DNA of 64,000 bases, taken from contig SIJG01000077.1 of the NCBI GenBank assembly GCA_023374025.1, positions 440,565-504,564 of the forward strand, in the 5' to 3' direction. The translations under genes and the position numbers were made by a program. The notes below the pieces were generated by a model. It saw nothing but the letters and a program-made list of their open reading frames with translations, had not been told where the DNA came from and made no database searches. Positions 26,239 through 41,738 of the stretch are shown here, one piece after another. The DNA comes from Heterodera schachtii. Lineage: Eukaryota; Nematoda; Chromadorea; Rhabditida; Heteroderidae. Every line of letters starts with the position of its first letter. Position 1 is the stretch's first letter.

Positions 26239-27152
26239 CGGAACGGGCCAACTCCGTCTGGCCAACTCCGTCTTGCCAACTCCGTCTTGCCAACTCCGTC
26301 TTGCCAACTCCGTCTGGCCAACTCCGTCTGGCCAACTCCGTCTTGCCAACTCCGTCTTGCCAACTCCGTCTGGCCAACTCCGTCTGGGCCAACTCCGTCT
26401 TGGGGCCAACTCCGTCTGAGCCAACTCCGTCTCGCCAACTCCGTCTTGCCAACTCCGTCTTAGTGTATAAGGGGTCAACTCCGTCTCAGAGAGAAAAATT
26501 CATTTTAAGCTTAAGAATTTTTTTTAAATTTCAGTTTTATTAGCACATAACTAACAATTTAAAGTAACATTTTTTTAGCACCCCGAAAATGGAATAGACT
26601 ATGAAATCGAAATGGATTTCCAAATTTTAATCAGCCATAACTCGCTTTATTACAAACTAAGCCGAAAATTGAGATATCATTCGAAAGACTGAAAATTTTT
26701 TTTATGTTCGTAACTGTGCTTATTGACCTTATTTTGTTGTTGCAATGATTCCTGACTAAATTTGGCTTATTTTGGTTAATTTAGGAACCAAAGTGAGAAT
26801 TTTAAAAATATTTTTGTTCGAAACGGTTCGTGGTTCGAATTTAGTCGAAATGGATGTCAGATTTGTGATTAGCGACCCCGAAAACCCTTGGAAGCATGTT
26901 TTTATGACATTAAAAAAACTTTCTTCAAAAAGTGGGTGATCCCGACCTAATAAAACTGAAATTTTAAAAAAATTCTTAAGCTTAAAATGAATTTTTCTCT
27001 CTGAGACGGAGTTGGCCCCTTATACACTAAGACGGAGTTGGCAAGACGGAGTTGGCGAGACGGAGTTGGCTCAGACGGAGTTGGCCCCAAGACGGAGTTG
27101 GCCAGACGGAGTTGGCGAGACGGAGTTGGCCAGACGGAGTTGACCCCTACCG
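26239..27152. mobile_element. Foldback transposon with CCAACTCCGTCTTG minisatellite arms, TSD GAGACCGA
   Basis: Exact 8-bp duplications GAGACCGA at 26231-26238 and 27153-27160. Ends CGGAACGGGCCAACTCCGTC and, inverted, CGGTAGGGGTCAACTCCGTC (three mismatches). The arms are tandem 14-bp units, about 16 on the left and 9 on the right in opposite orientation, followed by a paired subterminal block (AGAGAGAAAAATTCATTTTA and its inverse near 26980). The core (26600-26940) contains TATCATTCGAAAG and GTCGAAATGGATGTCAG, shared with other foldback families here. No ORF except repeat translation. Confidence 0.93.
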
Positions 27153-27259: not shown

Positions 27260-30200
27260 TTATTCAGCAGCAATTTTTCGTCGCCCTTTTGTCGGTAAAA
27301 TTCCATGTGAATACAAATGTTGGCAAATATTTTGCGCCAGTTCCTTTTGGCCAATTTGCAAGCACAAACAAATGGCCAATGAGAAGAGTAATTTAGAACA
27401 GTCAATGCTAACATCCGGCAAAGTCACCTTTTGCCACTTTTGTGCCACCATTTTTTGTTCATCATTTTCAATCGAAACAACCGATGTATATTGTTTTATA
27501 AAGTCCCAGTCGGCTGTTTTAACGCTTTCGTCCAAATTTCTTATAAATTTAAATGGAAATTACTTTTAAATAAAAATTTCGGTTTTCCATTAAAACAGAG
27601 CCCGAGTTCTATTAATTTCTTAAGGCTAATTTTACCCAAAATTCATTCTTCCAAGTTATATAACTCATTATTTCAAACCCGAAATTTCTTGAAAAGTCAA
27701 TAAATCCAAGGGTTTTTGTCCGTGAAATGGAAATCAAATTTTACCGAATTTTAATTTTTGCCAAATGGTCGGGAAAAAAAATTGGCATAATCCGCGGCAG
27801 AGTCGATGCCAGGAGGATTAGAGTCAAACGGTTGCGGGTTGGTTGCGGGTGTTTACCGCACAAACCCGTGCATAGGGGAGGGGTTTTTCTTTGAAGTGCC
27901 GCTCGCGCACATTCCCGAAACTATGAGGGGTGTTTCTCTTTGACGTGCGCCCGCGCCAATCCCGAGCCATTTAAATGTTTTGAAGTTGCCGTCCCGCACG
28001 AACCGTGCTTGGGAGGGGTGAACCTTTTAGGTTGCAGCCAAGAACCCAAACGCCTAAGGGAGGGTGCACTCCGGTTGATGTTGCCGACTAATCCTAAAAC
28101 CTATGCAACACTTGATGTGGCCGAACCAGCCAAATCCGTTCCCCAATCTCGCAGGTTTTTTTCACCGCGCCGAGCTGCGCCTCGGGAGGTCATCAATCAT
28201 CCACTGTCACTCAACGTGACAGGTGAAGGAAAATTCAAGTTTCTTTTGCAAATTTAAATCTATTGATTCCAACCTTTGGGGAGGTTTTATTGTCTCAAAC
28301 CTGAGATTTTTATGAGTATATCCTGAAATTAAAAACACCATTTGGAAATTTGCCAAAACCGTGACGGTTTTTATCACCTTCCCTCCCTCACGCCTGACCG
28401 CGATTGCCGCCGCCGCGCAAAGTAATCGATAATGGAATTGAGAAGAGTGAATTATTGATTGCAGCCAAAATTAAAGATTTATGAAGGGGATAAAAAACAT
28501 TATATCAATTAAAATAAAACGAAAAATGAATAAATAAATAAGGATGAAAATTTTTTTTTCAAAAGTAGCGCACCTGTTCAACAAAATTGCTTGATTCGTT
28601 TTTATTTATCGTCCACGGATTTCGCATACGCAAACCTTTTGTTCCAATATTACGCTTATGAGATAAAATTGCCAAACCTGTCATTAACAATGATAGATGG
28701 TTTCCTTATTCACAATTTCCCCATATCTCGAAATGTGCCGGACTTTTTAATGTTGTCCCAGATATTCACAATTGCGCATTATGTGGGTCATGTCAATCAA
28801 ACAAGATGACAACCAATTTGCACTGACTTGACTAATTTTTTTTTGCCCCTTGAATAGAATGGTCACGTTGTCAGAAAAATGATTGATCACTTTCGAAATG
28901 AAGAATATCCGGCCGATTTTTGCACATTTTGAAGAAATTGTAGGGAAATAATTTATGATTTTCGAAATAAGGGCATGAGTCTGCAATCTCCAGGTAGTAT
29001 ATATAGGTCAAAACAGACGAGGTACAGAAATGATCCCTCAAATCCCGAACCTATTGAGGGGGTGTTTCTCTTTGAAGTTGCCGCCCGCGCACAATCCCGA
29101 GCCATTTAAATGTTTTGAAGTTGCCGTCCCGCACGAACCCGTGCCTATGGGAGGGGTGCAACCTTTTTAAGGTGCCGCCAAGAACCAAAGCCTAAGGGAG
29201 GGTGCACTCCTTTGATGTTGCCGACTATCCTAAACCTATTGCACCACTTTGATGTTGCCGCCCCAGCCAAATCCGTTTCCCCAAATCCTCGCAGGTTTTT
29301 TTTCACCCCGCGCCGCGCTGCGCCGCGGGAGGTCATCAATCATCCACCTGTCACCAAAGTGACAGGTGAAGGAAATTCAAGTTTTCTTTTGCAAATTTAA
29401 ATCTAATTGATTCCAAACCTTTTGGGGAGGTTTTATTTTCTCAAACCTGAGACTTTTTATGAGTATATCCTGAAATTAAAAACACATTTTGAAAATTTGC
29501 CAAAACCGTGCGGTTTTTATCACCCTCTCCCCTCCCTCCCTGCCTGCCCCGCGATGCCGCCGCCGCGCAAAGTAATCGATAATGGAATTTTGAAGAAGTG
29601 TGAATTAATTGATATTGGCAGCAAATTAAATGAATTAATGAATTGGATAATAAAATTAATTATATCCAATTTAAAAATAAAACCGAAAATGAATAAATAA
29701 ATAAGGATGAAAAATTTTTTTTCAAAAGTAGGTCACCTGTCAACTAAAATTGATTGATTCGTTTTTATTTATCGTCCATTGATTTCGCAATACGCAACTT
29801 TTTGTTCCAATTATTTCGCAATATGAGATAAAATTTGCAAACCTGTCAATAACAATGATTGATTGGTTCCTTATTTCGCAATTTTCCCCATTATCTCGAA
29901 ATGTGCACGTGACTTTTTTAATTTTTGTCCAACTATTTCACAATATGCGCATTATGTGGGTCACCTGTCAATCAAAAAAAAAGATGACAAATCCAATTTG
30001 CACATGACTCGACTAATTTTTTTTTGCCCCTTTGGAATAAAATGGTCAAAGTTGTCAGAAAAATGATTGATCACTTTCTAAATAAGGAATATCCAGACGA
30101 TTTTTGCACATTTTTGAATGAAATTGTCAGAAAATAATTGATGATTTTCGAAATAAGGCATGAGTCTGAAATCTCCAGGTAGTAGTATATAGTGTCAAAA

Positions 30201-33200
30201 CAGCCGAGGTACAGAAATGATCCCTCAAAATCCCGAGCCTATTGAAGGGGTGTTTTCCTTTGAAGTTGCCGCCCGGGATAGGCTCCTACAAAAGCCCAAA
30301 CGTATTGGAGGAGGGTTGTTTTCCTTGAAGTTACCGCCTTGGGATTTTTACCTCAAAATCCTGAGCCTAATGCTTGGGTGTTTATCTTTGAAGTTGCCGC
30401 TCGAGGCATTTATCCGCATCTATTAAACAGTCTTGAAGTTGCCGCCTCGAGATTTTTCCCTAACTCTTAAGCAACCCTTTGAAGGTGTCGCCTCATGGAT
30501 ATTCATTCTCGACAAAATCGTGCGGGTGTTTTTTTGCCACCCATCTCACTCTCCGTCGTGGCGCTGCGAAGTTGCCGCGCCGCGCCGCGCCACGCCGCGG
30601 AAAGGTAATCAATCATTCCCCTGCCACAAGTGTGACAGCTGAAAATAATTTCAACCAAAATTCTTTGCACACCAAATCCCAAGTATTTGTCGCTGCTTTG
30701 AATGCCGCTCATTAAAATTTATAATACGTGTTTAAATTTCCAAATCCTAAATTTAAAAAGTGTGATTTTTTAAAAATTTCTTAAACCGCGTGTTTTTTCT
30801 TCACTTCTCCAGCACCTTCCCCCGCCTCTGCCGACCGGAGCGGTCAAATCAATCGATATTTTGCAGAGAATTGCGGGAAAGGAAGAGCGAAAGGGTTCTT
30901 TAACTGAACATAAACGTAAAGAAATAATGGGCCGACGAAAATTTTTAAACTAAAATTAATAAAATAGGACCAAAAAATTAAAGGTAAGGATAAATCCAAA
31001 AAAATGAAGTTTCAATTGATGATGAGCGTACCATCTTTCTTTCCAAAATCAAAAACGATTTTACAAAATTGACCAAAATTTCTGAAAACCTGCCAAGCAA
31101 AATTGATTGACTGCGTTTCTTATTTTTTGAAAATTTTATGCAAAGTTAATTAATTATCATCAGTCAGCTCAACGACCCAAAGATAATAAAATTCCATTTA
31201 AAAAATAATAAAAAAATCTGAATGTATGTTGTTTAAAGTCATTCGTTAAAAATAGTTTTCTTAATAATTCTTGCTTCCTTCAACCCTCCCATATCCCTCA
31301 GCCGACTTGAATTTCATTAGTTTTCTTACTTTAAGAGTCAAAGGTATTTACTATCAATATAATGGAAAAGCATTCAATAGTTTTAGGTTTGGTTTCGCCG
31401 GTTATCCTAAAAGTTTTATGAATTTCCCAAGACCATGGGAATGATTTCCTTTAAAAATTTTTCTATATGGTATTAATTTGAAAAAATGGCATGTTAAAAA
31501 TATTACTCTTTCGTCTATGCCAATGTAATTCTCGTTGTTCATCTTTCTATTTCAAATTTAATAGAATAACCAAACTCAATGGTAGCGGATTTTCATTTAG
31601 TTTTCCCGCTGCTAATTTATATAAAAATAATGCTCTGATTATGAAAATGCAATCCTTATCAGTTCCCGGGCCTTTTCTTTTGAATGTATATTTTAAACCT
31701 TCTGCATTTTTAATGTTTAAATTATAATATTAATTTTTTGGTGACATGATCTGGTATGCAGCTTTTGAAAATGTCTAGATAATTGAAAACACTTCCCCAT
31801 AACCTAGACCTTTTAAAATTCTCAATGCTTAAGGCATAGAAAAATATCGGGACGACATTACGATATTGATTAACCAAGTAAAACCCTAAAAGCTTTAAAA
31901 TCGCAAAATTTGGTCAAAAATTAATGTTAATGATTTTATTTGATTCCACCTATTAAGGGTATACATTTTAGTTTTCTGAATTCCTGGATTTTTTTTTGAT
32001 AAGGAATTTTCTTAATAGGAATTACCACCAACTAAATATCGAATATTCGGCCCTAGATGCCAATTTATAATAACACTTTATTAGTTTCTTCAAAAAATAT
32101 TTGTAAAGGTTTCAAACTTTTCTGTTTTTTGGATCCTGATGAAATGGGTGTATGAATTTAATTAATTAGCCAAAAATTTTAAAAACGAGTAAGAAATGGT
32201 TTGTTACAAAATTAAAATATATAAAAATAATGTAATGAGCTTATGCTTTAATTTTTACATTCTCGCCAAACAATCGTATTAGGGATTTTTAATAATTGTT
32301 GAAAAAATAAAATATATCTTTATTTCGACCGACTGTTTATTAAAGGTTAATTAGTATTTAGATGTCTAATTATTTTTCGTAATTTTGCAAATTTGTTTAC
32401 ACTTGTCAAAAGGTTTCAGAAACAAACTAAAATTAAACTTTTTAAGAATGTTTCATATTTAATAAAATGTCATCGAAAAATAAAATTCTTTTTAAAAGAT
32501 ACCCAATTTTCGATTTATGAGCTGTGAAAGGAATTTAATTTTTTCTCCTTTTGAATATTATTGTATTGCGTTTCCTTAAATTTTTATCAATTTCTGAAGG
32601 CTTATTATTACAATAATAGACAGATGAACAGCATTTTATTATGTTAATAAAATATAAATAGCATTTTATTACGTTAATAAAATATAAATAAAAATTAAAT
32701 TGCAAAACTAGATATCTTCAAAGCACAGCAATTTTTGTAAAATGAATAAAGAAAAGAAGCCTAGGGGAAGACCTCCGAAAAATAAAGAAAAATCTAGTGA
32801 AGCATTTAATCAAAAAGTTAATCCCCGAGTAGAAAAGAATTTATCAAAAATTTTAAAACCCAAATTCCAAAAAGAAAAATCTACTGAAAATTTTAATAAA
32901 AAAGAAAATCTCAGAGTAGAAAAGAATTTATCAAAATTTTTAAAACCCAAAGTTCAACTTAATGGAAAAAGAATAGAAATAAATTCAGAAAGGGACACAA
33001 ATGCAGTTCATACTAAAATAAAACTTCCTCCAATATATGTAAGATTATAGCTACCAAGGTTATATTTCAAATACTGACGACTATTGTTCATCAATCACTT
33101 CTTATCAAAATCATTTTATCAGCTTTTGACAAAATTAGCATACAATATAAATACATGGACAATGTTTGCTTGAAACGGCAGAGGAAATAGTGTGAAAAGT

Positions 33201-36200
33201 AAAAGAAAAAGCAATTTCAAATACGAGGTGAAGGGAGAGAAAGTCATCGGGAAACTGGTTAAATGTGTACCGAAAAGGGCAGAGAAGATTGAAATTACAA
33301 GGAAAAGTCTATTGTTATTGGTTGATAGTGGAAAAAGATGAATAGGCAACGACAACCGGTGAAATGAGAGTGAAAAGGAATTAAGATACAAGGAAATAGG
33401 TGAATTATGTGTCGATATGTAGTTAAACAGCAAATGAATATGTTAAACATACTGTGATAAGTCGTGAAAAGCAAAGGGTATGGGTGATATGTTTAATGAT
33501 ATATGGTGAAAAGTGAAAAGGTAAAAGCAAAAAATGTTAGTGCTAAATAGTGAAATGAGGTGAAAACCAATAAGCAACAGGTGAAATGTCCTGTGATAAG
33601 TGGTGAAAAGAGGTGAAAAACAATAGGAAATAGGTGAAATGTCCTGGTGAAAAGAGGTGAAAAACAATAGGAAACAGGTGCAATGTCCTGTGATATGTGG
33701 TGAAAAGAGGTGAAAAACAATAGGAAACAGGTGAAATGTCCTATGATAAGTGGTTAAAAAAGGTGAAAAACAATAGGAAATAGGTGAAATGTCCTGTGAT
33801 AAGTGGTGAAAAGAGGTGAAAAACAATAGGAATAGGTGAATGTCCTGTGATAAGTGGTGAAAAAAGGTGAAAAAACAAAAGGAAATAGGTGAAAGGTCCT
33901 ATGATAAGTAGTGAAAGAAGTGAAAAACTATAGGCGACAGTGAAATTTTCAGTTCAAGGTGGTGAAAAGATGTCGAAAAGTCTAAGAACATTGATGAAAT
34001 TCTAGAGAAGTGATGAAAAGAGGTGAAAACTAAAAACGGAAATAAGTGAAATGTTTCAAAAACAGATGAAATGACAACGAACGACGCTGAGATTTTCGTG
34101 AATGATGAAAGGCAAAACAAAACATAGTTGAGATAGAAGCTATTTTAAACTGGTGAAAATGCAAAGAAATAATCGAATATGTAGAAAAATAATAAAAGAA
34201 TTTAAGAGATTTACCTTAACAATGGCAAAATTAATCGCTGTTAACTGTGCAAAAGGAAAGTTTTGTGACGGGTATTGTTATCACAAACACAAAAAGACAA
34301 AAAATAAAATTTGGTGGAAGTGTGAACTTTATCAACAAGGATGCAAAGGTTGGGGTTTTGAGAGTAACGGTGAGTTTTTCGGCACTCGAATGCATAACCA
34401 TCCTCCAGACCAAATTCTACTTCAAATTGAGGGAGAACAATAGATTTGAATATGTTAAACATAGAAATCAGATTTCACATTGGAATTTCAAAAATATCAC
34501 ATGAAATTATTTTTCCTCTCAGCGTGCATAATTTTGGGTAACTCAAAACTTGAAAAAAAGTTTGATATTTCCCACTTCTGAGTTTTTGAATGAGCTTAAT
34601 TTTTGTTCATACCGCTTCAATTTCAGGGATTGAATAAATGGCAATTAAAAATTGCGGCTAACAGGTACTTACCTACACTTTAGGTCGTTCCCAATTGATG
34701 GGCCACCAGAAAGTTGGGCACCGGGTGTTTGGAAATCAGGAAGCTTGGGCATCATAATTTAATCAATTAGTGCAGCTAATTAGACATAGGGTAGGTTAAG
34801 CGGCTACTTTTTTTTCCGCCTTAGACCATGGAAACAGTGGAGACTGCTTGGGATTCAAATCAGAATCCCGTCGGTCGGACATCGTCGTCTTCCCCAGCCG
34901 TCGGTGTCAGCTCAAAAAGTTGAGCCATTCTCGTCACCACGTGCTAATCACTAATTTTATTTCTACTAATTAGAAAATTCTACCCACAAATGGTTGACTA
35001 ATAGACTGAAATGCGCTTTATTTTGTGATAGTAAGGCCTAATTTTGAAAAATAACAAATTTTTGGCAGAGTAATTTATCTGGGCCCGATTTTTTACTCTG
35101 CAAAAATTTGTTATTTTTCAAAATTAGGCCTTACTATCACAAAATAAAGCGCATTTCAGTCTATTAGTCAACCATTTGTGGGTAGAATTTTCTAATTAGT
35201 AGAAATAAAATTAGTGATTAGCACGTGGTGACGAGAATGGCTCAACTTTTTGAGCTGACACCGACGGCTGGGGAAGACGACGATGTCCGACCGACGGGAT
35301 TCTGATTTGAATGCCAAGCAGTCTCCACCGTTTCCATGGTCTAAGGCGGAAAAAAAAGTAGCCGCTTAACCTACCCTATGTCTAATTAGCTGCACTAATT
35401 GATTAAATTATGATGCCCAAGCTTCCTGATTTCCAAACACCCGGTGCCCAACTTTCTGGTGGCCCATCAATTGGGAACACCTAAAGTGTAGGTAAGCACC
35501 TGTTAGCCGCAATTTTTAATTGCCATTTATTCAATCCCTGAAATTGAAGCGGTATGAACAAAAATTAAGCTCATTCAAAAACTCAGAAGTGGGAAATATC
35601 AAACTTTTTTTTCAAGTTTTGAGTTACCCAAAATTACGCACGCTGAGAGGAAAAATAATTTCATGTGATATTTTTGAAATTCCAATGTGAAATCTGATTT
35701 CTATGTTTAACATATTCAAATCTATTGTTCTCCCTCAATTTGAAGTAGAATTTGGTCTGGAGGATGGTTATGCATTCGAGTGCCGAAAAACTCACCGTTA
35801 CTCTCAAAACCCCAACCTTTGCATCCTTGTTGATAAAGTTCACACTTCCACCAAATTTTATTTTTTGTCTTTTTGTGTTTGTGATAACAATACCCGTCAC
35901 AAAACTTTCCTTTTGCACAGTTAACAGCGATTAATTTTGCCATTGTTAAGGTAAATCTCTTAAATTCTTTTATTATTTTTCTACATATTCGATTATTTCT
36001 TTGCATTTTCACCAGTTTAAAATAGCTTCTATCTCAACTATGTTTTGTTTTGCCTTTCATCATTCACGAAAATCTCAGCGTCGTTCGTTGTCATTTCATC
36101 TGTTTTTGAAACATTTCACTTATTTCCGTTTTTAGTTTTCACCTCTTTTCATCACTTCTCTAGAATTTCATCAATGTTCTTAGACTTTTCGACATCTTTT

Positions 36201-39200
36201 CACCACCTTGAACTGAAAATTTCACTGTCGCCTATAGTTGTTCACTTCTTTCACTACTTATCATAGGACCTTTCACCTATTTCCTTTTGTTTTTTCACCT
36301 TTTTTCACCACTTATCACAGGACATTCACCTATTCCTATTGTTTTTCACCTCTTTTCACCACTTATCACAGGACATTTCACCTATTTCCTATTGTTTTTC
36401 ACCTTTTTTAACCACTTATCATAGGACATTTCACCTGTTTCCTATTGTTTTTCACCTCTTTTCACCACATATCACAGGACATTGCACCTGTTTCCTATTG
36501 TTTTTCACCTCTTTTCACCAGGACATTTCACCTATTTCCTATTGTTTTTCACCTATTTTCACCACTTATCACAGGACATTTCACCTGTTGCTTATTGGTT
36601 TTCACCTCATTTCACTATTTAGCACTAACATTTTTTGCTTTTACCTTTTCACTTTTCACCATATATCATTAAACATATCACCCATACCCTTTGCTTTTCA
36701 CGACTTATCACAGTATGCTTAACATATTCATTTGCTGTTTAACTACATATCGACACATAATTCACCTATTTCCTTGTATCTTAATTCCTTTTCATTCTCA
36801 TTTCACCGGTTGTCGTTGCCTATTCATCTTTTTCCACTATCAACCAATAACAATAGACTTTTCCTTGTAATTTCAATCTTCTCTGCCCTTTTCGGTACAC
36901 ATTTAACTAGTTTCCCGATGACTTTCTCTCCCTTCACCTCGTATTTGAAATTGCTTTTTCTTTTACTTTTCACACTATTTCCTCTGCCGTTTCAAGCAAA
37001 CATTGTCCATGTATTTATATTGTATGCTAATTTTGTCAAAAGCTGATAAAATGATTTTGATAAGAAGTGATTGATGAACAATAGTCGTCAGTATTTGGAA
37101 TATAACCTTGGTAGCTATAATCTTACATATATTGGAGGAAGTTTTATTTTAGTATGAACTGCATTTGTGTCCCTTTCTGAATTTATTTCTATTCTTTTTC
37201 CATTAAGTTGAACTTTGGGTTTTAAAAATTTTGATAAATTCTTTTCTACTCTGAGATTTTCTTTTTTATTAAAATTTTCAGTAGATTTTTCTTTTTGGAA
37301 TTTGGGTTTTAAAATTTTTGATAAATTCTTTTCTACTCGGGGATTAACTTTTTGATTAAATGCTTCACTAGATTTTTCTTTATTTTTCGGAGGTCTTCCC
37401 CTAGGCTTCTTTTCTTTATTCATTTTACAAAAATTGTTGTGCTTTGAAGATATCTAGTTTTGCAATTTAATTTTTATTTATATTTTATTAACGTAATAAA
37501 ATGCTATTTATATTTTATTAACATAATAAAATGCTGTTCATCTGTCTATTATTGTAATAATAAGCCTTCAGAAATTGATAAAAATTTAACGAAACGCAAT
37601 ACAATAATATTCAAAAGGAGAAAAAATTAAATTCCTTTCACAGCTCATAAATCGAAAATTGGGTATCTTTTAAAAAGAATTTTATTTTTCGATGACATTT
37701 TATTAAATATGAAACATTCTTAAAAAGTTTAATTTTAGTTTGTTTCTGAAACCTTTTGACAAGTGTAAACAAATTTGCAAAATTACGAAAAATAATTAGA
37801 CATCTAAATACTAATTAACCTTTAATAAACAGTCGGTCGAAATAAAGATATATTTTATTTTTTCAACAATTATTAAAAATCCCTAATACGATTGTTTGGC
37901 GAGAATGTAAAAATTAAAGCATAAGCTCATTACATTATTTTTATATATTTTAATTTTGTAACAAACCATTTCTTACTCGTTTTTAAAATTTTTGGCTAAT
38001 TAATTAAATTCATACACCCATTTCATCAGGATCCAAAAAACAGAAAAGTTTGAAACCTTTACAAATATTTTTTGAAGAAACTAATAAAGTGTTATTATAA
38101 ATTGGCATCTAGGGCCGAATATTCGATATTTAGTTGGTGGTAATTCCTATTAAGAAAATTCCTTATCAAAAAAAAATCCAGGAATTCAGAAAACTAAAAT
38201 GTATACCCTTAATAGGTGGAATCAAATAAAATCATTAACATTAATTTTTGGCCAAATTTTGTGATTTTAAAGCTTTTAGGGTTTTACTTGGTTAATCAAT
38301 ATCGTAATGTCGTCCCGATATTTTTCTATGCGTTAAGCATTGAGAATTTTAAAAGGTCTAGGTTATGGGGAAGTGTTTTCAATTATCTAGACATTTTCAA
38401 AAGCTGCATACCAGATCATGTCACCAAAAAGCATTTTCTAGGGAAGAAAATTAATATTATAATTTAAACATTAAAAATGCAGAAGGTTTAAAATATACAT
38501 TCAAAAGAAAAGGTCCGGGAACTGATAAGGATTGCATTTTCATAATCAGAGCATTATTTTTATATAAATTAGCAGCGGGAAAACTAAATGAAAACCCGCT
38601 ACCATTGAGTTTGGTTATTCTATTAAATTTGAAATAGAAAGATGAACAACGAGAATTACATTGGCTTAGACGAAAGAGTAATATTTTTAACATGCCATTT
38701 TTTCAAATTAATACCAATAGAAAAAATTTTTAAAGGAAATCATTCCCATGGTCTTGGGAAATTCATAAAACTTTTAGGATAGCCGGCGAAACCAAAGCCT
38801 AAAACTATTGAATGCTTTTCCATTATATTGATAGAAAATGCCTTTGACTCTTAAAGTAAGAAAACTAATTAAATTCACGTCGGCTGAGGTATGGGGAGGG
38901 TGAAAGGAACAAAAACTATTTTTTAACGAATGACTTTAAACAACATACATTCAGATTTTTTATTATTTTTTAAATGGAATTTTATTATCTTTGGGTCGTT
39001 GAGCTGACTGATGATAATTAATTAACTTTGCTTAAAATTTTCAAAAAATAAGAAACGCATCAATCAATTTTGCTTGGCAGGTTTTCAGAAATTTTGGTCA
39101 ATTTTGTAAAATCGTTTTTGATTTTGGAAAGAAAGATGGTATGCTCATCATCAATTGAAAATTCATTTTTTTGGATTTATCCTTACCTTTAATTTTTTGG

Positions 39201-41738
39201 TCCTATTTTATTAATTTTAGTTTAAAAATTTTCGTCGGCCCATTATTTCTTTACGTTTATGTTCAGTTAAAGAACCCTTTCGCTCTTCCTTTCTCGCAAT
39301 TCTCTGTAAAATATCGATTGATTTGACCGCTCCGGTCGGCAGAGGCGGGGGAAGGTGCTGGAGAAGTGAAGAAAAAACACGCGGTTTAAGAAATTTAAAA
39401 AAAATCACACTTTTTAAATTTAGGATTTGGAAATCCAAACATGTATTATAAATTTTAATGAGCGGCATTCAAAGCAGCGACAAATACTTGGGATTTGGTG
39501 TGCAAAGAATTTTGGTTGAAAATATTTTCAGCTGTCCCACTTGTGGCAGGGGAATGATTGATTACCTTTGCGCGGCGGGGCGCGGCACGACGACTTCGCA
39601 GCGCACCGACGGAGAGTGAGATGGGTGGCAAAAAAACACCCGCACGATTTTGTTGAGAATGAATATCCATGAGGCGACACCTTCAAAGGGTTGCTTAAGA
39701 GTTAGGGAAAAATCTCGAGGCGGCAACTTCAAGACTGTTTAATAGATGCGGATAAATGCCTCGAGCGGCAACTTCAAAGATAAACACCCAAGCATTAGGC
39801 TCAGGATTTTGAGGTAAAAATCCCAAGGCGGTAACTTCAAGGAAAACAACCCTCCTCCAATACGTTTGGGCTTTTGTAGGAGCCTATCCCGGGCGGCAAC
39901 TTCAAAGGAAAACACCCCTTCAATAGGCTCAGGATTTTGAGGGGATCATTTCTGTACCTCGGCTGTTTTGACACTATATACTACTACCTGGAGATTTCAG
40001 ACTCATGCCTTATTTCGAAAATCATCAATTATTTTCTGACAATTTCATTCCAAAATGTGCAAAAATCGTCTGGATATTCCTTATTTAGAAAGTGATCAAT
40101 CATTTTTCTGACAACTTTGACCATTTTATTCCAAAGGGGCAAAAAAAAATTAGTCGAGTCATGTGCAAATTGGATTTGTCATCTTTTTTTTGATTGACAG
40201 GTGACCCACATAATGCGCATATTGTGAAATAGTTGGACAAAAATTAAAAAAGTCACGTGCACATTTCGAGATAATGGGGAAAATTGCGAAATAAGGAACC
40301 AATCAATCATTTTTATTGACAGGTTTGCAAATTTTATCTCATATTGCGAAATAATTGGAACAAAAAGTTGCGTATTGCGAAATCAATGGACGATAAATAA
40401 AAAACGAATCAATCAATTTTAGTTGACAGGTGACCTACTTTTGAAAAAAAATTTTTAATCCTGATTTATTTATTCATTTTCGATTCAATTGGATTTACAT
40501 AATTAATTTTATTATCCATTCATTAATTCATTTAATTTGCTGCCAATATCAATTAATTCACACTTCTTCAAAATTCCATTATCGATTACTTTGCGCGGCG
40601 GCGGCATCGCGGGGCAGGCAGGGAGGGAGGGGAGAGGGTGATAAAAACCGCACGGTTTTGGCAAATTTTCAAAATGGGTTTTAATTTCGGAAAAAGCATC
40701 ATAAAAATTCAGGATTTGAGAAAATAAAACCTCCCCAAAAGGTTTGGAAAAAAAAGAATTAAATTTGCAAAATAAAAATTGAATTTCCTCCACCTGTCAC
40801 TCTGGTGACAGGCGGATGATTGATGACCTTCCGCGGCGCTGCGCGGCGCGGGGTGGAAAAAAACCTGCGAGGATTTGGGGAAACGGATTTGGCTGGGGCG
40901 GCAACATCAAAGTGGTGCAATAGGTTTAGGATAGTCGGCAACATCAAAGGAGTGCACCCTCCCTTAGGCTTTGGTTCTTGGCGGCACCTTAAAAAGGTTG
41001 CACCCCTCCCATAGGCACGGGTTCGTGCGGGACGGCAACTTCAAAACATTTAAATGGCTCGGGATTGTGCGCGGGCGGCAACTTCAAAGAGAAACACCCC
41101 CTCAATAGGTTCGGGAATGTGCGCGAGCGGCAACTTCAAAGAAAAACACCCCTCCCATAGGCACGGGTTTGTGCGGTAAACACCCGCAACCAACCCGCAA
41201 CCTTTTGACGCTATATACTACTGATGACCATTAATTAATCACCCAATTTTCTACCTTTCAACAAATGTGCCAAATCGGTGCAGAAAGTGTTGAACAAATG
41301 GCAACGGAATAGTCAACAATTGGTGCATTTCGTCATAATTCACTTCGTCCGACTGGTTTTTGAATGTTTCAAATAAAATTTGGCCAAATTTGAAAATGGA
41401 ATTTCCCCATTTTGTCAGCCCTTTGATTTTGCCGCTTCGCAATTCGCATGCATTGGCCTGGCCATATGCCGTTCCGAGTTTGTCCAACAGAGCCAACAGC
41501 TTTCTGAGGGCACGTTTTTGTTGTGCTAATGTTTCGCTTTTTTCAATATTATTTGCGGCATTTTGTAATTGTTCCGCCGACGATTCATACCAATAAAATT
41601 CGTGCGTGGTTAGAAATGACATTAAAAGTTCGAATTCATTCAATTTTTGAAAGTATTTGATCGTCGTTCTTTGTTTTTCTGATGGAGATGCCAAAAGTGA
41701 ATGGACGATGTTGCGCAGGTCATCACAAAATTGTAAAA
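27260..41738 (-). CDS. Unrecognised protein gene interrupted by the 13.4-kb palindrome
   Basis: Exon 41255-41738 (VLQFCDDLRNIVHSLLASPS, FYWYESSAEQLQNAANNIEK, ending FLHRFGTFVE at a GTAGAA donor). Then a short candidate exon at about 27745-27797 (IFFPDHLAKIKI), which joins in phase to exon 27260-27539 (LDESVKTADWDFIKQY, LLFSLAICLCLQIGQKELAQ, ending GRRKIAAE stop). The palindrome lies between the first two. Helical character throughout; I do not recognise a family. The phase between 41255 and the 27.7-kb exon is not resolved, so the two sides could be different genes. Exons upstream may be those at 42.3-47.8 kb. Confidence 0.4.
32742..33050 (+). CDS. AT-hook protein, palindrome left arm
   Basis: A 102-residue ORF. 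The N-terminus KKPRGRPPKNKEK contains a canonical AT-hook core (RGRPP), which binds the minor groove of AT-rich DNA. Two internal repeats follow, each VEKNLSKILKPK or VEKNLSKFLKPK, with charged linkers. No other domain seen. The copy at 37115-37423 is identical. It may be a complete small protein or the first exon of a longer transposon protein. Confidence 0.65.
   Translation: MNKEKKPRGRPPKNKEKSSEAFNQKVNPRVEKNLSKILKPKFQKEKSTENFNKKENLRVEKNLSKFLKPKVQLNGKRIEINSERDTNAVHTKIKLPPIYVRL
33440..34090 (+). repeat. 53-bp tandem repeat in the palindrome arms
   Basis: Units begin near 33588, 33736, 33789 and 33842 with GTCCTGTGATAAGTGGTGAA and include AGAGGTGAAAAACAATAGG; outer units are degenerate and one is shortened near 33640. 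The mirror array is at about 36060-36725. ORFs rich in FTSFHH on the other strand are translations of this repeat, not genes. Confidence 0.85.
34153..34443 (+). CDS. FLYWCH-type zinc finger protein, palindrome left arm
   Basis: A 96-residue ORF; a second ATG at 34222 would start MAKLIAVN. Visible FLYWCH signature: KLIAV, DGYCYHKH, then WWKCELYQQGCKGWGF and MHNHPPD, placing Cys-Cys-His-His in order at the expected spacing. FLYWCH fingers are DNA-binding and commonly sit ahead of MULE-type transposases in nematodes and insects. No transposase domain follows here, so this arm is non-autonomous or carries a captured finger. Confidence 0.7.
   Translation: MKMQRNNRICRKIIKEFKRFTLTMAKLIAVNCAKGKFCDGYCYHKHKKTKNKIWWKCELYQQGCKGWGFESNGEFFGTRMHNHPPDQILLQIEGEQ
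35722..36012 (-). CDS. FLYWCH-type zinc finger protein, palindrome right arm
   Basis: Mirror copy of 34153-34443 with an identical 96-residue translation. The two copies are divergently placed about 1.3 kb apart around the palindrome centre and point away from it. Same interpretation and limits as the left copy. Confidence 0.7.
   Translation of the reverse strand: MKMQRNNRICRKIIKEFKRFTLTMAKLIAVNCAKGKFCDGYCYHKHKKTKNKIWWKCELYQQGCKGWGFESNGEFFGTRMHNHPPDQILLQIEGEQ
37115..37423 (-). CDS. AT-hook protein, palindrome right arm
   Basis: Mirror copy of 32742-33050 with an identical 102-residue translation including RGRPP near residues 8-12. It lies downstream of the right-arm FLYWCH ORF and on the same strand, so the order in each arm, going outward, is FLYWCH then AT-hook, with opposite relative orientation to the centre in the two arms. 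Confidence 0.65.
   Translation of the reverse strand: MNKEKKPRGRPPKNKEKSSEAFNQKVNPRVEKNLSKILKPKFQKEKSTENFNKKENLRVEKNLSKFLKPKVQLNGKRIEINSERDTNAVHTKIKLPPIYVRL

Follow-up and report, generated by a model that had tools for sequence, protein, structure and literature searches.

The 64,000-bp window of Heterodera schachtii DNA analyzed here contains a palindrome that probably belongs to a family of non-autonomous, palindromic satellites of Polintons (Mavericks), which would have originated by snap-back replication and would rely on enzymes acting in trans. Sequence comparisons confirmed the 13.4-kb palindrome and identified it as a transposable element. Positions follow the numbering of the whole stretch; the window copy is referred to as C77, and other C numbers denote other contigs of the genome.

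Structure and insertion of the window palindrome

The inverted match between 29043-35073 and 41116-35093 was 97.8% identical over 6,060 aligned columns, and a chance origin of the 13.4-kb inverted repeat was far excluded (BLAST E = 0). A tandem duplication of the terminal ~1.2 kb makes the left arm the longer one (27913-29087 against 29043-30275), and the left and right outer ends align with 86.2% identity (27810-29087 against 41223-39890). The original prediction had described near-identical inverted arms around a 19-bp gap, each with identical AT-hook and FLYWCH ORFs, and these features were all recovered, including the presence of both DNA-binding genes in duplicate (Table 1). Its expectation of defined outer ends also held, but the boundaries it had placed at 27798-41215 were better set by the termini and the target duplication at 27811-41222, which gives a length of 13,412 bp.

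Table 1. Features of the window palindrome, copy C77
Feature	Position	Strand	Remark
Target-site duplication, left: GATGCC	27805..27810		One base off GATGAC; empty site has a single GATGAC
Left arm, outer end to centre	27811..35073	+	Decayed terminus AGGAGGATTAGAGT
Additional tandem copy of Polinton-type terminal repeat, left arm only	27811..29087	+	27913-29087 is an 87.8% match to 29043-30275
Terminal repeat region, left arm	29043..30130	+	Matches Polinton ends C18, C59, C73
AT-hook protein ORF (RGRPP), left arm	32742..33050	+	102 aa; AT_hook domain score under the Pfam cut-off
Tandem array, ~53-bp unit, GGTGAAA-rich, left arm	33550..34029	+	Immediately upstream of FLYWCH ORF
FLYWCH protein ORF, left arm	34159..34443	+	94 aa; conserved inner start 34222 gives 73 aa
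Central spacer, 19 bp	35074..35092		By eye resembles a shortened form of the longer spacers in C109, C27, C28
Right arm	35093..41222	-	Outer terminus AGTAGTATATAGCGT as read on the - strand
FLYWCH protein ORF, right arm	35722..36006	-	Protein identical to left-arm one
GGTGAAA-rich array, right arm	36136..36615	-	
AT-hook protein ORF, right arm	37115..37423	-	Protein identical to left-arm one
Terminal repeat region, right arm	40036..41222	-	Matches Polinton ends
Target-site duplication, right: GATGAC	41223..41228		

An uninterrupted relative of the insertion site was found on contig C69, which carries a ~99% (98.6%) identical copy of the right flank of the element and matches its left flank with 90% identity. 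This site reads GGCAGAGTC-GATGAC-CATTAATT with one GATGAC, while the window reads GATGCC, the element, and GATGAC. The empty site with a single GATGAC indicates that the 13.4-kb palindrome entered in one piece and generated a target duplication of 6 bp, as expected from the original prediction of a transposon whose terminal repeats fill the whole element. GATGAC was thus duplicated on insertion, its left copy being later altered by one base to GATGCC. As a sequence comparison, the empty site provides direct evidence that the palindrome was inserted whole, and evidence against an assembly artefact.

Target duplications of 6 bp, the defining value for Polintons, were found in all seven palindromes with both termini read. 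These included C77 (five of six bases, in addition to the empty site), C27 (GATGTC), C34 (GAGGTC), C30 (CCTGTG), C28 (CATAAA), C13a (CATATT), and C95 (CTCATT). The tally excludes C109, C40, C13b, C15, C56, C82, and C195, for which termini were unread or one was lost. Additionally, C113, C169, C78, and C60 were not counted as palindromes of the window family: the data cover C113 incompletely, reading of C60 was confined to one end, reading of the C78 locus revealed no AGTAGTATA terminus, and the ends of C169 and C113 showed no matching target duplication. The Polintons C18, C59, and C73, used as controls, also had 6-bp duplications, with an extra AGT at one end of C73. Just outside the left end of the window element, a pair of inverted arrays with a repeat unit of 14 bp, GCCAACTCCGTCTT, was observed at 26246-27147.

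Polinton ends and a family of palindromes

The outer terminus read from other copies, AGTAGTATA, is common to the window element and to the Polintons C18, C59, and C73 of the same genome, and a 5'-AG start is typical of Polinton termini. The termini of palindromes C34 and C27 agree only over about the first 10 bp, with terminal repeats that have diverged beyond this point. At least 72 genome matches to the outer sequence were identified (40 of 86 candidates scored), several of them as facing pairs ~6-18 kb apart, and some of these pairs enclose Polintons. Pfam scoring of protein pieces recovered a packaging ATPase from C73 (Pox_A32, Adeno_IVa2), a retroviral-type integrase from C18 (rve), a weak adenovirus-type protease from C169 (Peptidase_C5-like), and DNA_pol_B_2 from palindrome C13a, the last with a 97% identical copy in Polinton C73. 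Two large ORFs in capsid position, which are putative capsid genes, had no significant Pfam family, and the polymerase piece had no match in the PDB. The integrase had at least 118 matches genome-wide at several identity levels (116 of 242 candidates scored), and its named relatives were in H. schachtii, Meloidogyne, and Heterodera trifolii, the last with 98-99% over 40-41% of the query. The genome is rich in Polintons.

The window element shares only the terminal repeat with Polintons. It matched none of the ten Polinton protein pieces searched, which included the integrase, ATPase, protease, polymerase, TATA-binding protein, and both large ORFs; the original prediction had likewise noted the lack of a transposase. 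The absence of enzyme matches marks the element as a derivative and not an autonomous Polinton. With Polinton ends, no enzymes found, and movement as a unit, it is best described from its sequence as a non-autonomous Polinton derivative that would be mobilized in trans.

Further copies and single-arm copies of the element, both raised by the original prediction, were searched for in the genome. Centre-proximal DNA occurred in facing pairs at nine loci (C77, C109, C27, C34, C40, C30, C28, C13b, and C116), although in C34, C40, C116, and C13b the 150-270 bp beside the centre was absent on one or both sides. The spacers of C77, C109, C27, and C28 were similar when compared by eye, which makes it probable that copies inherited the palindrome ready-formed. 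The FLYWCH protein had 33 genome matches at 16 loci, 12 of which carry facing pairs. Single-arm copies were thus found but were few: the other loci comprised single copies in C13b and C181, a tandem pair in C159 (62% identity), and a weak match in C1 (37%) that lies ~8 kb from a Polinton integrase. Among these 33 matches, no strong one was found inside an integrase-bearing Polinton.

A second class of palindromes retains a Polinton enzyme. In C13a and C95, each arm carries, reading inwards to the centre, a polymerase gene, a GGTGAAA array, and FLYWCH, and the polymerase end is duplicated head to head up to the termini. C195 was placed in this class by its coordinates and centre, and C15 was placed there in part. 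Polymerase pieces matched in C13a, C95, C15, and C56; the C56 palindrome has the polymerase and the GGTGAAA array without a FLYWCH match, whereas the polymerase palindrome C82 lacks the array and stems from a distant lineage of Polintons, both having been read short of their outer ends. The occurrence of polymerase palindromes in C13a/C56 and in the distant lineage of C82 suggests that palindromes of the polymerase end probably formed repeatedly. C13a ends ~6 kb from the integrase of another Polinton lineage.

A TATA-binding-protein gene (PF00352), an unusual cargo for Polintons, was identified in C18 (L015:3101-3517, E = 5.5e-23), in C59 (L022:6315-6938, E = 6.3e-38), and at one end of palindrome C27 (L009:2710-3042, E = 4e-18). 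Among the AT-hook palindromes searched, pieces of this gene were present only near the ends of C27 and C34, which hints that AT-hook palindromes acquired pieces of the opposite Polinton end, the location of the gene in C18. Separately, C169 carries an integrase flanked on each side by a polymerase end, its terminal types differ, and it shows no matching target duplication; it looks like a chimera or an intermediate of end duplication.

Alternative accounts of the palindrome as a whole were weighed against these results. Long-read sequencing is known to produce spurious palindromes, and inverted or chimeric reads could have been assembled into one here. This is very improbable given the empty site with its target duplication, the precise outer ends, the 2.2% difference between the window arms, the facing pairs at nine loci, and the 6-bp duplications in seven palindromes with different flanks. 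A head-to-head insertion of two elements and a segmental inverted duplication were both rejected because a single target duplication encloses the whole structure and facing pairs recur. FLYWCH fingers occur in MULE transposases, and the original prediction had raised a possibly MULE-derived foldback, for which an autonomous MULE relative might be found. A nematode foldback family of this (Phantom/Tm1-like) kind does exist: Tm1 of Meloidogyne is a Mutator/foldback family with a MULE transposase and a 9-bp target duplication (PMC3169594). The window element resembles Tm1, and Galileo of Drosophila, in its long, internally repetitive inverted ends and in the occurrence of non-autonomous copies; Galileo differs in belonging to the P superfamily. 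However, the target duplication here is 6 bp and not 9 bp, the ends are shared with Polintons, the sister palindrome class carries a Polinton polymerase, and none of the at least 95 MULE-domain matches listed (150 of 158 candidates scored) lies in a palindrome. A MULE origin was therefore rejected as exceedingly improbable, and the enzyme-bearing relatives proved to be Polintons instead. With its structural claims upheld and its MULE derivation abandoned, the original prediction was partly supported.

Conserved genes and GGTGAAA arrays

The 94-aa protein is termed FLYWCH-like on the basis of a match to Pfam PF04500 under the cut-off of 23.6 (20.2 bits, E = 0.00069), an alignment to the human FLYWCH1 structure 2RPR (E = 0.0054), and an all-beta model predicted without an alignment, which is weak (pLDDT 63.5). 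Between the two palindrome classes, 28 of 37.5 synonymous sites of its gene differ in the comparison of C77 with C13a, with a dN of 0.148, and the comparison of C109 with C13a gave a dS of 1.86 and a ratio of 0.08. Since synonymous divergence between the classes greatly exceeds dN, purifying selection on the protein has been strong. Within the AT-hook class, the FLYWCH ratios ranged from 0 to 0.42 with few differences, and those of the AT-hook protein ranged from 0.06 to 0.44 where defined. Among the ORFs of at least 55 aa in the left arm of the window element, compared with C27, C30, and C28, none was equally conserved outside the AT-hook and FLYWCH genes and the frames overlapping FLYWCH. 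A stop codon occurs in the FLYWCH frame of C27.

GGTGAAA arrays adjoin FLYWCH in both palindrome classes. Beside FLYWCH in the AT-hook palindromes, 16-29 occurrences of the motif were counted per 600 bp, except for the truncated left arm of C13b with none. The corresponding counts were 9-10 in C13a, C15, and C95, 18 in C56, and zero in C82, and six Polinton pieces had at most two. The probable role of the FLYWCH protein is to bind these arrays next to its gene and to regulate expression or replication of the element. A word-based protein search found no FLYWCH relatives outside this genome, and of four stretches of viral contigs that fit the FLYWCH pattern, none was confirmed.

Arm divergence and the proposed replication cycle

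Arms of the same copy were highly similar in both classes. In the AT-hook class, their identity was 97.8% in C77, 99.8% in C27, 99.3% in C109 (over 1.5 kb), 99.5% in C30, and 99.9% in C28, and in C34 it was 98.8% and 96.8% in pieces and 89.5% in the outermost part. Among the polymerase palindromes, the values were 98.4% for C13a, 98.8% for C95, 99.2% for C56, and 97.5% for C82. In the alignment blocks B2 and B3, arms of the same copy were 98.7-100% identical, compared with at most 98.5% to any other copy compared, and they were sisters in all five pairs of the combined B2 and B3 tree (support 100) and in all seven pairs of the B3 tree (support 89-100). In the tree of block B1, the two window arms were only weakly joined (support 61), and the right arm showed 98.4% identity to C40 but 97.9% to the left arm of the same element, so exchange between copies also occurs. 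Across the three blocks, 57 of the 68 differences between arms were private to one arm, and the remaining 11 had both states in other copies. The sisterhood of arms and the predominance of private differences suggest that the arms were nearly identical at the birth of each copy, with some exchange afterwards.

Divergence was unevenly distributed in some copies. For example, the arms of C77 differ at 12 of 3,000 positions in the inner 3 kb (0.4%) and at 87 of 3,000 in the outer 3 kb (2.9%), and the inner half is likewise far less diverged than the outer half in C34. This gradient suggests post-insertion conversion near the centre in both copies. In contrast, C27, C28, and C30 were near-identical along their arms, with no gradient from inside to outside. 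A 216-bp FLYWCH coding block (34222-34437) was identical between C77 and C30, while the surrounding blocks compared differ by ~7-17%, which suggests either that copies exchanged sequence or that the DNA itself is constrained.

The gradient in C77 and C34 would also be expected if gene conversion of inserted copies, of the kind known from sex-chromosome palindromes, were the main reason that the arms stay alike, with nothing special about replication. The stop codon of C27, which is present in both arms, points the same way. This account nevertheless seems rather unlikely, as the near-identity of C27, C28, and C30 without a gradient is what identity at birth predicts and most arm differences are private to one arm; identity at birth and conversion may both act. 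Sex-chromosome palindromes also have arms that are kept alike in pairs, but they are not mobile and lack a target duplication, unlike the window element. Growth of the inverted structure by recombination between oppositely oriented copies, that is, by terminal repeat expansion and not by snap-back, is a distinctly improbable alternative. It would account for the additional tandem terminal repeat in the left arm of the window element and for the mosaic arms, including the restriction of TATA-binding-protein gene pieces to C27 and C34. On the other hand, polymerase palindromes arose in at least two lineages (C13a/C56 and C82), each symmetric about one centre, and such end-to-centre symmetry would not be expected from random recombination.

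To our knowledge, little is known about Polinton replication. Under the preferred snap-back origin, the first palindromes would go back to protein-primed replication in which a displaced strand turned back on itself close to its 3' end and served as its own template. The products would be molecules of the form end-centre-end, as in the snap-back defective genomes of DNA viruses. Polinton polymerase and integrase would be supplied in trans and work on the shared ends. The replicating single strand would form a hairpin over its full length and undergo repair or renewed copying against itself, and for this reason new copies would start with identical or nearly identical arms. After insertion, the arms would drift, with further conversion near the centre. 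More tentatively, though still quite conceivably, the palindromes may form a long-lived, self-complementary satellite lineage of Polintons, in which snap-back genomes were inherited, FLYWCH and then the AT-hook gene were gained, the polymerase was lost in one branch, and a single-armed or hairpin stage in each cycle remakes identical arms.

The symmetric defective genomes of adenovirus are of the snap-back (self-complementary) type. The nearest published process found was that of adeno-associated virus (AAV), in which snap-back genomes form from either genome end and replicate with helper functions (PMC8235507). By analogy, C13a and C95 have one genome end duplicated head to head, and their helper enzymes would likewise be supplied in trans. 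Unlike snap-back defective genomes, the palindromes here are integrated, are present in many copies, and carry their own genes under purifying selection. The window element resembles nematode Polintons (polintoviruses) in its termini, subterminal repeats, and 6-bp target duplication, and its sister-class palindromes carry a type-B polymerase, but it differs from them in consisting entirely of inverted repeat, with FLYWCH and AT-hook genes and no Polinton protein match. A literature search found no paper on palindromic Polintons among the titles listed, in a scope without the nematode Polinton polymerase survey of Jeong 2023, no paper on Polintons in Heterodera, and nothing relevant on symmetric adenovirus recombinants. 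Incomplete adenovirus particles appeared as entries in the reference list of PMC5033970.

The family indicates that kilobase-scale palindromes can be both inherited and mobile in a nematode, and it makes the proposed hairpin intermediate testable. Several groups of DNA viruses have been rooted in Polintons. Their palindromes, some with a duplicated polymerase end, would preserve, like fossils, a record of protein-primed replication gone astray in an animal, and they would extend Polinton biology by a layer of satellites that have conserved DNA-binding genes of their own. Polymerase matches in inverted pairs ~4-7 kb apart were also observed by coordinates in C3, C80, and C33, which belong to distant Polinton lineages and are possible further palindromes.
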